Both the position numbers and the translations under genes were made by a program. DNA of 29,545 nucleotides from a virus, in IMG/VR virus record IMGVR_UViG_3300019764_000015, positions 1-29,545 of that record, one strand, 5' to 3'. A model generated the notes under the pieces. The model had not been told where the DNA came from, made no database searches, and saw nothing but the letters and a program-made list of their open reading frames with translations. Shown here one piece after another: positions 1,405 to 23,492 of the stretch. The stretch's first letter is position 1; every line of letters starts with the position of its first letter.

Positions 1405-1515
1405 TGGTCAAGACAGGATTCGAACCTGTATGAAGTGACCGTTCTACAAGAACTTGTACCAACTCGCGTTCCACTTCTTAACCCCCTTAGCGTCTACCAA
1501 TTCCGCCACTTGACC
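1405..1515 (-). tRNA. tRNA-like gene (Leu-type ends) with abnormal 60-nt core
   Basis: Read on the minus strand, the ends are clearly tRNA. The acceptor stem GGTCAAG pairs with CTTGACC and is followed by discriminator A. TG is followed by a D-arm GCG GAATTGGTAGA CGC, identical in form to bacterial tRNA-Leu. A T-arm ACAGG TTCGAAT CCTGT is perfect. CCA is not encoded. The 60 nt between D-arm and T-arm do not form a normal 5+7+5 anticodon arm plus variable arm, for which about 32 nt would be expected in tRNA-Leu. A GTTAAG (possible UAA or AAG Leu anticodon) sits in the right place but lacks a 3' stem partner. GAAGTG (RNA positions 39-44) pairs instead with CACTTC (79-84). It may be a tRNA-Leu with an insertion, a degraded tRNA, or a tRNA-like RNA. 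Confidence 0.6.
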
Positions 1516-1519
1516 TGTA

Positions 1520-1527
1520 CAAATATA
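1520..1527 (-). promoter_or_regulatory. Bacteroidetes -7 box for the leftward tRNA and operon
   Basis: The minus strand reads TATATTTG, matching TAnnTTTG. The box ends five bases before the tRNA-like 5' end, so transcription could start at or next to the mature 5' end. A TTTG lies at 1552-1555, but its spacing of about 24 bases is longer than the usual 19-21, so the -33 element is uncertain. Confidence 0.5.
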
Positions 1528-1600
1528 TAAAAATATTATTACATAAATACACAAATTCGATTTTTTTTTTACATAGAGCTATAATAATTACTTTTATGGT

Positions 1601-5476: not shown

Positions 5477-5910
5477 TGGATTTAAGTCAAGCAATAAGAA
5501 CAGGTTACTATAGTGTGCTAGATGGCAATGTTTTTCATAACGGACACCCAGTGCCTATTTTTGACGATTTTGCAACAGCAGAAGGAGTTAACTATCCTTA
5601 TATAATTCTAAGTAGTCAAAACAACGTACAAAGGTTTATTAAGCGTTGTAAGAATTATGATAGTACAATAGTTATTGATATTGTAACAGGAAGCAGTAGA
5701 CCTATAGGAAGAGCAGACAGCGAGGATATTGCGGAGCAAATAGAGAATATAATTAATCCTAATGGATTAGACAACGTAGATATAATTTCTAACGGTTATA
5801 GAATAGGTAACACGTTTAGAATAGCAGACAATAATATAGTTTCAAAAAATGACGTTTATTACGTTTACAGAAAGCTATTAACCTATTCACATTTAGTAAG
5901 TAAAATTTAA
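5476..5910 (+). CDS. tail terminator / completion protein-like
   Basis: Position between the gp10-like gene and the major tail protein, and size (144 aa), match the tail terminator that caps the tail tube. The sequence agrees with the loose family pattern. An N-terminal helix (LSQAIRTGYYSVLDG) precedes 'P.fd.....YPYIILSSQ', then a strand with D-I-V-T-G, then a helix (SEDIAEQIENIINP) with LDNVDI after it, and a C-terminal YVYRKLLTYSHLV strand. Family members diverge strongly, so the assignment rests mostly on synteny. Confidence 0.68.
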   Translation: MDLSQAIRTGYYSVLDGNVFHNGHPVPIFDDFATAEGVNYPYIILSSQNNVQRFIKRCKNYDSTIVIDIVTGSSRPIGRADSEDIAEQIENIINPNGLDNVDIISNGYRIGNTFRIADNNIVSKNDVYYVYRKLLTYSHLVSKI

Positions 5911-5923
5911 AATCAATAATAAA

Positions 5924-6373
5924 ATGGCAGGAAAAAACAATGCGATAAAAAGCGAAGGGGTTGGGTTGTATTTCAACAACGGAACACCAGAAACACCAGA
6001 CTGGTTATTAGCTGTGTGTTCAACGTCTGACGGATTCGACTCGTCGGTGGATTCAGTTACCACATCAACTAAATGTGATGGTGGTTGGGTTACTTCATTA
6101 CCAGGAGATGGTAGTTGGAGTTTTTCACATTCAGCACTTGCGAACTACGAGCCTGGAACTGGAAAGATGTCTTATAAGCAATTACAAGATATTTATTTAG
6201 CTAAAACAGTAGGACAATGGAAGTTGGAGAGTGTGGACACTGAGGACGATTACTACTGGGAAGGAGAAGGTTGGATTTCGGCACTTACGGAAACAGCACC
6301 TTCTGGGGAGTATTTAACAGTAGATATTACCGTAACTGGTTCAGGAGAGCCAAGTAACACACCAAGCACATAA
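5924..6373 (+). CDS. major tail tube protein
   Basis: This is the tube subunit that polymerises around the tape measure. It is 149 aa long, of tail-tube size, and all-beta in appearance. It has the characteristic 'T.tKCDGGWVTSLPGDGSWS' segment (most members have 's..t.s.k.....e.l.g..swt'), then a YKQLQDIYLAKTVGQWKLES helix-strand and a GEGWISALTETAPSGEYLTV strand pair. The short Ser/Pro/Thr tail may be exposed. It lies immediately before the tail assembly chaperone, the standard order, and is probably highly expressed late. Confidence 0.85.
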   Translation: MAGKNNAIKSEGVGLYFNNGTPETPDWLLAVCSTSDGFDSSVDSVTTSTKCDGGWVTSLPGDGSWSFSHSALANYEPGTGKMSYKQLQDIYLAKTVGQWKLESVDTEDDYYWEGEGWISALTETAPSGEYLTVDITVTGSGEPSNTPST

Positions 6374-12616: not shown

Positions 12617-14092
12617 ATGAATCCAACAAGTTTTAAATACGGTATTAGATTACCACAAGCAACAGAAGATAACAGTAAGTTGAAGCTAGTAGCTATTGAT
12701 GATGATGGTAATATACAGGCTTATATTACAGAAATACCTGCTAGTATGCTACCGCCTATTGCTATAACAAGTGTTATTATAGCTACAGAAACAACAATCT
12801 CAGACTTTGCTTCAAATAGTGGTAGTTATACTTTTGAGCAAGGAGATGTAATAGTGTTAGATAATGGTAACGGAAACTATTATATGTACAACGGAGGCAC
12901 TAAAACAGATGTTAGTGCATATAACGAGATAACAGCTTCTGAAATTGATTGGAATCAAATTGTAAATGTACCAACAGATGTAACTAACCCAACATTAGAA
13001 GATGTTTTAAATAATGGAATTTTTGGGGGAATTAATAATAATATAATACTTCAAGGTGATGGATATTTAAGAACAGATAATAATATTAAGATAAAGCCTA
13101 AATTAGCTATTACAGAATCGGATGGTTATAGTAGTATAGGTGTTTTATCAGAGGATTTATTCTACTTGTTGCAGACTAAAAACACAGGAGAAAACTCATA
13201 TTATTTAGGTTTAGATATTTCTAATTTAACTGCTAACAGAGTTGTTGAAATTCAAGATTTCGGTGGGAAACTACCTGTTTTAGGGGTAAATACTAATGAT
13301 GGAGATTTTGAAATAAATGGTATATTTACAGGAAATGGTAGTGGTTTAACTGATGTGAATGCAACTCAATTAGGGGGGCAACCTGCTAGTTATTATAATT
13401 TTAGAAATTATGGTTTAGGAGGATCGGCTATCTCAACAAATAACTTTGACACAATAGACGCTACTGGTTTTTATTACAACCCGGCACCTGGTGCAGTTGG
13501 GCAACCAGCTAATTTAGGTCTGCTATGTATATCTCATTTTCAAATAGATAATAACACAGCTACACAAGATGCTAGAAGAGCAGGAGGAGACCAGCAATGG
13601 TATCGCAGAAAAATTGGAGGTGTTTGGTACCCTTGGGTAGAGCTTATTACCGAAGACAATATTTCAAATTACTCATCTTTACCAGCAGGTTTTTACGAAG
13701 AAGGTACTTTTACGCCTACTTTAGTTGATGCAGGAGGGGGAGCTACTTACTCTTTTACTGTAGATGAGGCTAATTATGTTAGGCAAGGTAATTCTGTTAC
13801 TTTTAATATAAGATTATTATCAATAAATACAACTGGAACGCCCAGTGGTATCTTACAGCTTGGTAATCTTCCTTTTAATACATCTACTAATGTAAATCCA
13901 ATATCTGTAAGTGCTTTCACTGGTAGTGATTTGTCTAGTTCTAACTTAGATAGATTAGCTGCAAGAGTAACTACATCTAATTATATTCTTTTTAAATCTG
14001 TATCTTCAGCAGCTGTTTCTGTAGCTATTACATTTTCATCAGGTGTTATTGAAGTTGGTGGCACATACATAACAAATGTTTACACACCATAA
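12617..14092 (+). CDS. tail fibre protein
   Basis: This 491-aa fibre contains several recognisable fibre elements in order. The N-terminal attachment region is followed by FEINGIFTGNGSGLTDVNAT with QLGGQPASYYN, the repeat used in trimeric fibre shafts. A knob-like domain with QQWYRRKIGGVWYPWVELIT is similar to pyocin-knob/fibre domains. The C-terminal domain begins GTFTPTLVDAGGGATYS and contains NYVRQGNSVTFNIRL and LGNLPFNTS, a jelly-roll type found at the tips of Bacteroidetes phage fibres. It is the likely host-recognition protein and is followed by the lysis genes. Confidence 0.82.
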   Translation: MNPTSFKYGIRLPQATEDNSKLKLVAIDDDGNIQAYITEIPASMLPPIAITSVIIATETTISDFASNSGSYTFEQGDVIVLDNGNGNYYMYNGGTKTDVSAYNEITASEIDWNQIVNVPTDVTNPTLEDVLNNGIFGGINNNIILQGDGYLRTDNNIKIKPKLAITESDGYSSIGVLSEDLFYLLQTKNTGENSYYLGLDISNLTANRVVEIQDFGGKLPVLGVNTNDGDFEINGIFTGNGSGLTDVNATQLGGQPASYYNFRNYGLGGSAISTNNFDTIDATGFYYNPAPGAVGQPANLGLLCISHFQIDNNTATQDARRAGGDQQWYRRKIGGVWYPWVELITEDNISNYSSLPAGFYEEGTFTPTLVDAGGGATYSFTVDEANYVRQGNSVTFNIRLLSINTTGTPSGILQLGNLPFNTSTNVNPISVSAFTGSDLSSSNLDRLAARVTTSNYILFKSVSSAAVSVAITFSSGVIEVGGTYITNVYTP

Positions 14093-14607: not shown

Positions 14608-14703
14608 ATGAAAGCAGATTATTATTGTATGCCTGATGGCGTAGAAGAGATTACAGAACAAGACACAGGGGGAGACGGAACAGATGAGGATGGAGAAGTA
14701 TAA
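14608..14703 (+). CDS. very small acidic protein, 31 aa
   Basis: This is a complete ATG-to-TAA frame beginning MKADYYCMPDGVEEITEQDT. Its tail is dominated by Gly, Asp and Glu. It starts 2 bases after the upstream stop, and the next gene's ATG lies within its 3' end, so it fits the operon spacing. The acidic, Gly-rich composition is unlike the membrane proteins around it. The function is unknown, and it might be only a translational spacer. Confidence 0.45.
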   Translation: MKADYYCMPDGVEEITEQDTGGDGTDEDGEV

Positions 14704-15028
14704 AAATACTATATTATTTTCATTAATAATTCTAAGCCAAATACATGTATTATTTAGAGGTGTTGGGAGTTTTACATGGGTTCTAAATGACGTAGAAAAG
14801 ACTTTTAGCCTTTCTACGTTTTTATTTGTAAAACACTTAACTACATTTGTATTGTACTACATGATAATAAATCCTAAAGGAATAAATAAAAACTTACTTT
14901 ATTTTTGCTTTATTATTTCTGGTTTAGATATTATACATTTTATTGTATTGTCTGGTTTTGGATATGGTTTGGTTAAACTTATACTTTCTTTTGCAATATT
15001 AACCATATATTACTTTTTTAAAAAATGA
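14684..15028 (+). CDS. multi-pass membrane protein, 114 aa
   Basis: About four hydrophobic segments fill this protein: near residues 8-24, 45-63, 70-88 and 93-111. It ends in a basic YYFFKK. There is no enzyme motif. It overlaps the 31-aa gene by 20 bases and the following membrane protein gene by 4 bases. Its place in the lysis cassette suggests a holin, antiholin or superinfection-exclusion role, with no way to separate these by eye. A second ATG at 14690 is an equally plausible start. Confidence 0.62.
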   Translation: MRMEKYKNTILFSLIILSQIHVLFRGVGSFTWVLNDVEKTFSLSTFLFVKHLTTFVLYYMIINPKGINKNLLYFCFIISGLDIIHFIVLSGFGYGLVKLILSFAILTIYYFFKK

Positions 15029-23292: not shown

Positions 23293-23338
23293 CCAAAAAA
23301 ATTAACACTTTGTTACCTTTTATTTGTGTAATTACGTG

Positions 23339-23346
23339 TATATTTG
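23339..23346 (+). promoter_or_regulatory. -7 box in front of the structured RNA
   Basis: TATATTTG matches TAnnTTTG. Transcription would start a few bases downstream, at about 23350, which is the outer end of the 15-bp stem at 23349-23492. The lack of a protein gene within the next 300 bases makes a dedicated RNA promoter likely. A perfectly spaced -33 TTTG is not seen. Confidence 0.6.
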
Positions 23347-23348
23347 TA

Positions 23349-23492
23349 AAACAAATGACACAGAAGCTAGCAGGGATACCATTGCAATACAAGGATTCGT
23401 AAGAAGAGAGTGTCCAAAGCTCATTTGTATTTCCTACCGAGGGCGAGAGTACCCGAACGTAATATCGGTTAAATGGACTGTGTCATTTGTTT
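23349..23492 (+). ncRNA. candidate structured small RNA closed by a perfect 15-bp stem
   Basis: Bases 23349-23363 (ending CAAATGACACAG) pair perfectly with 23478-23492 (CTGTGTCATTTG and three T). Inside, ACCGA (23436-23440) pairs with TCGGT (23465-23469), GGG (23441-23443) with CCC (23452-23454), and ATTT (23429-23432) with AAAT (23471-23474). TTC-GTAA-GAA (23396-23405) forms a GNRA-type tetraloop hairpin. The strand ACAAATGA can pair either with TCATTTGT at 23421-23428 or with the same sequence at 23483-23490, so two folds are possible. A -7 box lies just upstream. A 61-codon frame covers the region, but it is Cys/Arg-rich and looks like chance. The family is unknown. Confidence 0.62.

Follow-up and report, generated by a model that had tools for sequence, protein, structure and literature searches.

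The locus and its RNA element

The window, a stretch of 29,545 nucleotides from an IMG/VR virus record, belongs to a tailed phage and carries genes for head, adaptor and tape-measure proteins. On its plus strand an intergenic RNA element of 144 bases (23349..23492, as defined by its fold and by a covariance model) is flanked by a ResIII/Helicase_C helicase gene, small ORFs and a gene for a BT4734-like/PriCT primase, and the next gene begins about 200 bases off. A sequence-only reading of this region had proposed a new phage structured RNA with its own promoter and two alternative folds. The parts from which that proposal was built, namely a 15-bp stem, an ACCGA/TCGGT helix, a GTAA hairpin, a TATATTTG box and two copies of TCATTTGT (23421-23428 and 23483-23490, plus strand), are all present in the sequence. 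No reverse transcriptase is found among the neighbours, in keeping with the earlier dismissal of a retron, and the 61-codon reading frame that had been weighed against an RNA is not kept: what tblastn finds of it in homologs is limited to short segments over the conserved RNA core.

The element is closed by a perfect 15-bp terminal stem, P1, formed by AAACAAATGACACAG (23349..23363, +) and CTGTGTCATTTGTTT (23478..23492, +), which is evident from both sequence and fold. Alignment with the homologs described below places within it a conserved single strand, J1 (GCAGGGATA, 23370..23378, +; GCGGGUA in the family), the strands of P2 (CCATT, 23379..23383, and AATGG, 23472..23476, both +) and those of P4 (ACCGA, 23436..23440, and TCGGT, 23465..23469, both +). 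The outer helix of P3, recognized by comparison, pairs AATACAA (23386..23392, +) with TTGTATT (23425..23431, +), the latter overlapping the inner TCATTTGT copy. P3 further encloses the hairpin TTC-GTAA-GAA (23396..23405, +; sequence and fold), which lies outside the general family core, and the hairpin P3b, GAGU-GUCCAAA-GCUC (23408..23422, +), in which 23408-23411 pair with 23419-23422 around an anticodon-loop-like loop of 7 nt. P5, GGGC-GAGA-GTACC (23441..23453, +; alignment and fold), has a GNRA loop, and here 23441-23444 pair with 23449-23450 and 23452-23453. It is followed by a conserved unpaired strand, CGAACGTAATA (23454..23464, +; alignment), which corresponds to CRARNGCAAUA in the family.

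The fold strength of the window element was matched by only 1 of 200 dinucleotide shuffles (z -3.3). As the minimum-energy fold of the window sequence (-39.1 kcal/mol) differs from the family fold (-30.6 kcal/mol) by 8.5 kcal/mol, the inner helices of this copy rest on comparison and not on energy.

Identification of the family

The starting point for the family was a weak blastn match in Cellulophaga phage phi4:1 (KC821632, ~90,490-90,630), in an unannotated region between a pseudo-tRNA and tRNA-Trp. The two elements have in common a core of the form AGAGTGTCCAAAGCTC...CCTACCGAGGG...CCC.AA..AATATCGGTTA, and their flanks differ. Scanning IMG/VR and bacterial genomes with patterns, and filtering the matches by a covariance model, yielded 47 distinct members. 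One is phi4:1, 43 are viral contigs (the window among them) and 3 are bacterial MAG contigs (L138 and L140 from CPR genomes and L146 from a Bacillota MAG). The model, R1, was seeded on six members with the window left out, and it recovered the window element with 36.7 bits (E ~5e-7), while giving no confident matches on the tested loci that lack the element. MAFFT alone misaligned P2 and P3, and an ungapped seed was accordingly prepared by hand, for which three rows each received one padding N and the L140 row lost one loop base; the window sequence was untouched.

Several candidates were discarded along the way. Most of the 15 matches of a first pattern scan were due to chance, the true ones being L086 and L092 (the phi4:1 member), and the pattern matches in bacterial genomes were likewise mostly chance, only the three MAG members being real. 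L168 and L243 had weak R1 scores, the former without P1, and both were dropped from the member set; L111 and L137 had no R1 match. Short matches to AACAAATGACA in L007, L058 and L005 come without stem or core and are attributable to chance.

The searches also delimit the distribution of the family. Neither blastn for element copies at 76 loci of relatives of the neighbouring primase nor R1 on 20 tested loci of this set gave a copy or a significant match, and the RNA is therefore not tied to the neighbouring primase gene. None of 395 Bacteroidota genomes had the element under strict filters run without a positive control. The relatives of the CPR carriers mostly do not have it (1/380, 1/39 and 1/40 genomes, carriers counted in), the first of these figures being that for Patescibacteria. 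Searches of phages by blastn with L102, L108, L174 and L177 added no further named family member. Rfam assigned the window element and its homologs L101 and L189 to no family at any useful score; apart from tRNAs, a cis-element in L117 that is unrelated to the family, and chance matches below threshold, it reported nothing for the window and homologs. In the literature searched there was no description of the family, and it may have been listed previously as an unnamed motif in earlier RNA surveys.

Conserved structure and covariation

The members share a fixed order of elements: P1, J1 (GCGGGU), P2, P3 with its outer helix and inner hairpin (loop GUCCAAA), P4 and P5; the 11-nt strand CRARNGCAAUA and a UA then lead into the 3' sides of P2 and P1. 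The core is a conserved three-way junction of P2, P3 and P4 with its GCGGGU, UCCAAA-loop and ACCC-RARNG-CAAUAUC strands. In an alignment of 46 rows (A5; one row, L168, is doubtful) that was fitted to the structure of R1, which favours pairing, 88.2% of cells are paired as against 57.2% in shuffles, 397 cells are double-changed as against 138, and the covariation score is 0.671 as against 0.162 in shuffles and at most 0.088 for slid pairings. The fold is also apparent, independently of A5, from a by-eye comparison of the window, phi4:1 and L086.

Compensatory changes run across the inner helices P2-P5. P2 is 92% paired with double changes at all 7 pairs, and P5 is paired in 97% of cells, with GG...CC and a GNRA loop in many members. 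The outer helix of P3 varies from GTATTA/TAATAC in L086 to AACAGATAA/TTATCTGTT in L119. P4, the ACCGA/TCGGT helix whose covariation had been proposed as a check, is paired in every sequence (100% of cells) and has double changes at two pairs; the middle pair of the helix switches between C-G, U-A, G-C and A-U. The terminal stem, proposed as a further check, lies outside R1 and was sought separately in the flanks. A P1 is present in most members with a sequence unrelated from one to the next, and for ~70% of members a comparable stem was reached in no more than 7 of 200 shuffles. It is short in phi4:1 and in those members that have a tRNA body, and in several members a run of T follows its 3' strand.

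The P3b loop is N-U-C-C-A-A-A in most members; a script scores it as 7 nt long in 24 of the 47, and inspection by eye adds more. The exceptions are loops of 5, 6 or 9 nt in several members, GUCUAAA in L119 and GUCCGAA in L183. The loop and J1 were both considered as candidates for kissing interactions with other strands; the loop does not vary with J1.

Together, the 47 members, the compensatory changes in the inner helices and the terminal stems of unrelated sequence bear out the proposal of a phage structured RNA, and strongly support the view that the element belongs to a family not described before, which would be new at the level of RNA class. The three-way-junction fold and the absence of an Rfam match likewise agree with the earlier exclusion of a 6S RNA. 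The proposed switch between two folds is not supported by comparison: an 8-nt inner complement of ACAAATGA is found in 1 of 47 members, against ~1.4 in shuffles. As an alternative partner the inner TCATTTGT copy has no counterpart outside the window and does not exceed chance, and in the family structure 23425-23431 pairs with 23386-23392 in P3.

The position of the window copy between helicase and primase genes, and of nine others beside replication or recombination genes, could also suggest a DNA element, such as a replication origin or a protein-binding site with an inverted repeat. We regard this as highly improbable: the G-U pairs, the compensatory changes of the inner helices, the GNRA loop and the tRNA bodies that enclose the core are all features of an RNA, and other members lie far from replication genes.

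The invariant parts of the family are mostly single-stranded, namely GCGGGU, the GUCCAAA hairpin loop and the strand following ACCC (RARNGCAAUA). Newly found structured RNAs this rich in conserved unpaired bases have often proved to be ribozymes, riboswitches or RNP RNAs. One alternative is a catalytic RNA, or the scaffold of an RNP with a widespread host protein, in which the J1, loop and P4 strands would be the active or binding site and any resemblance to tRNA would serve only end-processing and stability. The clustering of the conserved residues in single strands round a three-way junction whose helices drift freely is consistent with such a role, as is the fact that a plain stem can replace the tRNA body seen in some members. 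Rfam returned no match to a ribozyme or RNP RNA and no constant partner gene lies nearby, and we consider this alternative possible, if somewhat doubtful.

tRNA bodies and genome context

In five members (L104, L110, L117, L177 and L197) P1 serves as the acceptor stem of a tRNA body. A T arm and a D-like hairpin belong to this body as well, and the element takes the position of the anticodon arm, no normal anticodon arm being present. The bodies of L177 and L197 are tRNA-Leu-like, with A73 and a D arm of that type; L177 is recognized by the Rfam tRNA model at E 1.5e-6, the match being made only through the tRNA body and leaving 103 nt as an insert. The terminal module of the family is interchangeable between a bare stem of any sequence and a whole tRNA body.

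No protein neighbour is constant, as DNA helicase/primase genes, Sak4-like genes, terminase genes and tRNA clusters alternate around the element. About 12 members are in or near tRNA genes, further ones are near terminase genes, and nine from one phage group all sit in one narrow gap that separates an unknown gene from a Sak4-like gene. These nine, lying directly before the Sak4-like gene, point to another alternative, a cis-acting leader or attenuator in which the core would sense a ligand or protein and P1 with a U-rich run would terminate transcription or block ribosomes, so controlling the next gene. The T runs after several P1 3' strands and conserved unpaired bases of a kind typical of riboswitch aptamers fit this alternative. 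However, the downstream genes vary between members, ~12 members lie in or near tRNA genes and five inside tRNA bodies, and the next gene in the window is ~200 bases away; hence, a leader function appears unlikely.

The element-carrying genomes show some additional features. The CPR copies in L138 (504-604, Nomurabacteria) and L140 (3965-4064, Falkowbacteria) are beside ordinary chromosomal genes, the former directly after tRNA-Arg. Two phages with large tRNA sets have tmRNA genes ~2.3 kb downstream of the element (L174:6474-6827 and L189:5339-5702), and two others have tRNAs with a CTA anticodon (L116:11904-11979 and L196:3155-3240; Pyl according to ARAGORN), which are possible amber suppressors. 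In giant tRNA-rich phages there are tRNA-like genes, 100-135 nt long, whose large inserts lie close to the anticodon arm (L110:5367-5495, 5727-5854 and 5980-6109, +; L117:13040-13169, 13548-13681 and 14619-14722, -; L104:1050-1155 and from 2064, +), several of them with a stretch like AACAAATATTCCCTT...AAGTGGCGAGGTTAATCAGTTACTTCG.

Candidate promoter and a second RNA gene

The box TATATTTG (23339..23346, +), a candidate Bacteroidetes-type -7 box, ends 2 bases ahead of P1 of the window element, and is preceded by TTTGTGTAATTACGT (23323..23337, +), which carries the 15-nt motif TTTGTGTAWTTAYGT and matches 1541-1555 on the minus strand. By itself the box is not rarer than chance (42 instances of TAnnTTTG in the window against 50 expected), and no TTTG is found at the usual distance upstream of it. 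The match at 1541..1555 (-), exact for TTTGTGTAWTTAYGT, lies upstream of a second RNA gene (1405..1515, -), which is again preceded by TATATTTG (1520..1527, -). Both RNA genes have TATATTTGTA at their 5' end, and the window has only two exact copies of the 15-nt motif, one upstream of each, the motif having been defined post hoc after both sites were seen. The promoter reading gains support because the second RNA gene carries the same TATATTTGTA and the same upstream motif. A promoter of its own for the element, as proposed earlier, is plausible in the window phage. The common box and upstream motif are also suggestive of shared control of the window's two RNA genes.

This second gene is unannotated and was missed by ARAGORN. 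It has a tRNA-Leu-like body (Rfam tRNA, 39.2 bits) with parts GGTCAAG/CTTGACC, GGCGGAATTGGTAGACGC and ACAGGTTCGAATCCTGT, in which an insert of ~58 nt, TAAGGGGGTTA[AGAAGTG]...[CACTTC]AT, takes the place of the anticodon arm, and it is tied to the family element by context alone. Comparable tRNA-Leu-like bodies that lack a normal anticodon arm lie, unannotated, between genes of Bacteroides phage BS-TP2 (PQ571275; L297:1501-1608) and Sinorhizobium phage phiN3 (KR052482; L298:1499-1590), the latter with GTAGCGGGTTA at the place of the family's J1; R1 gave no match on either body.

Functional implications

A constant core, an exchangeable end module and the lack of a constant protein neighbour together argue for a stable RNA that probably acts in trans. 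It might be released as its own transcript, which in the window would start from the TATATTTG box and end at P1, or by processing from tRNA or operon transcripts, other members being within tRNA clusters, tRNA bodies or operons. The freed RNA would then act in trans as a stable RNA. Conceivably, it mimics a tRNA and so, during infection, occupies or baits a tRNA-binding host factor, such as the ribosome, a defence nuclease that cuts tRNA, or a tRNA enzyme. Such mimicry is suggested by the anticodon-stem-loop-like P3b, the tRNA arms that frame several members and the frequent proximity of tRNA genes, and phage tRNAs that counter tRNA-cutting defence provide a precedent (PMC11555353).

We give roughly even chances to this overall picture, in which a new family of small RNAs acts in trans, with a tRNA-mimic step. 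A tRNA-mimicking RNA acting on host translation or on tRNA-targeting defence is, tentatively, the best mechanism that we can propose. It is similarly tentative to see here a phage RNA class in which a junction domain replaces the anticodon arm of a tRNA and acts in translation or defence, its members having either a tRNA body or a bare stem with a promoter. Against mimicry, most members, including that of the window, are without a tRNA body. A specific mimic of tRNA-Trp is weakened by the loop being not always 7 nt long and not always containing CCA, and a purely phage counter-defence role does not fit the sporadic copies that two CPR genomes carry beside chromosomal genes.

The family is spread over unrelated phages and is inside tRNA bodies in some of them. 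Its presence in the cultured phage phi4:1 of Cellulophaga baltica makes expression, structure and role directly testable.

Comparison with known RNAs

Group I introns, the hairpin ribozyme and pRNA were dropped as relatives, since by eye their defining parts are absent. The yjdF riboswitch offers a likeness in having a tRNA-like fold outside translation (PMC9142559), but it is a cis-acting riboswitch and the element has no Rfam match. The relation to tRNA itself (RF00005) consists of the tRNA body of five members and the anticodon-like 7-nt loop of many; however, there is no anticodon arm at the tRNA position, and the window element is without any tRNA body. The tmRNA (ssrA) likewise combines a tRNA acceptor and T arm with a larger RNA domain that replaces the anticodon arm, as in L177 and L197, whereas the present family is far smaller, is mostly without a tRNA part and has no identified tag reading frame. 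No tmRNA was called over the element at the Rfam threshold or in the window by ARAGORN; a starred ARAGORN tmRNA call in L001 (890-1551) spans several annotated tRNAs and is taken to be spurious.

The T4 RNAs of species 1 and 2 (rnaC and rnaD) are not homologs, as R1 has no match over either gene with filters off and their predicted fold differs. They nevertheless resemble the family in being small stable RNAs (~120-140 nt) that a phage tRNA cluster encodes, with roles yet to be established (PMC3014915, PMC9697503), and rnaC has a T-arm-like hairpin (CCGGGTTCGAATCCCGG). The family described here provides a comparison case for the decades-old question of what the stable non-tRNA RNAs of phage tRNA clusters, such as T4 rnaC and rnaD, do.
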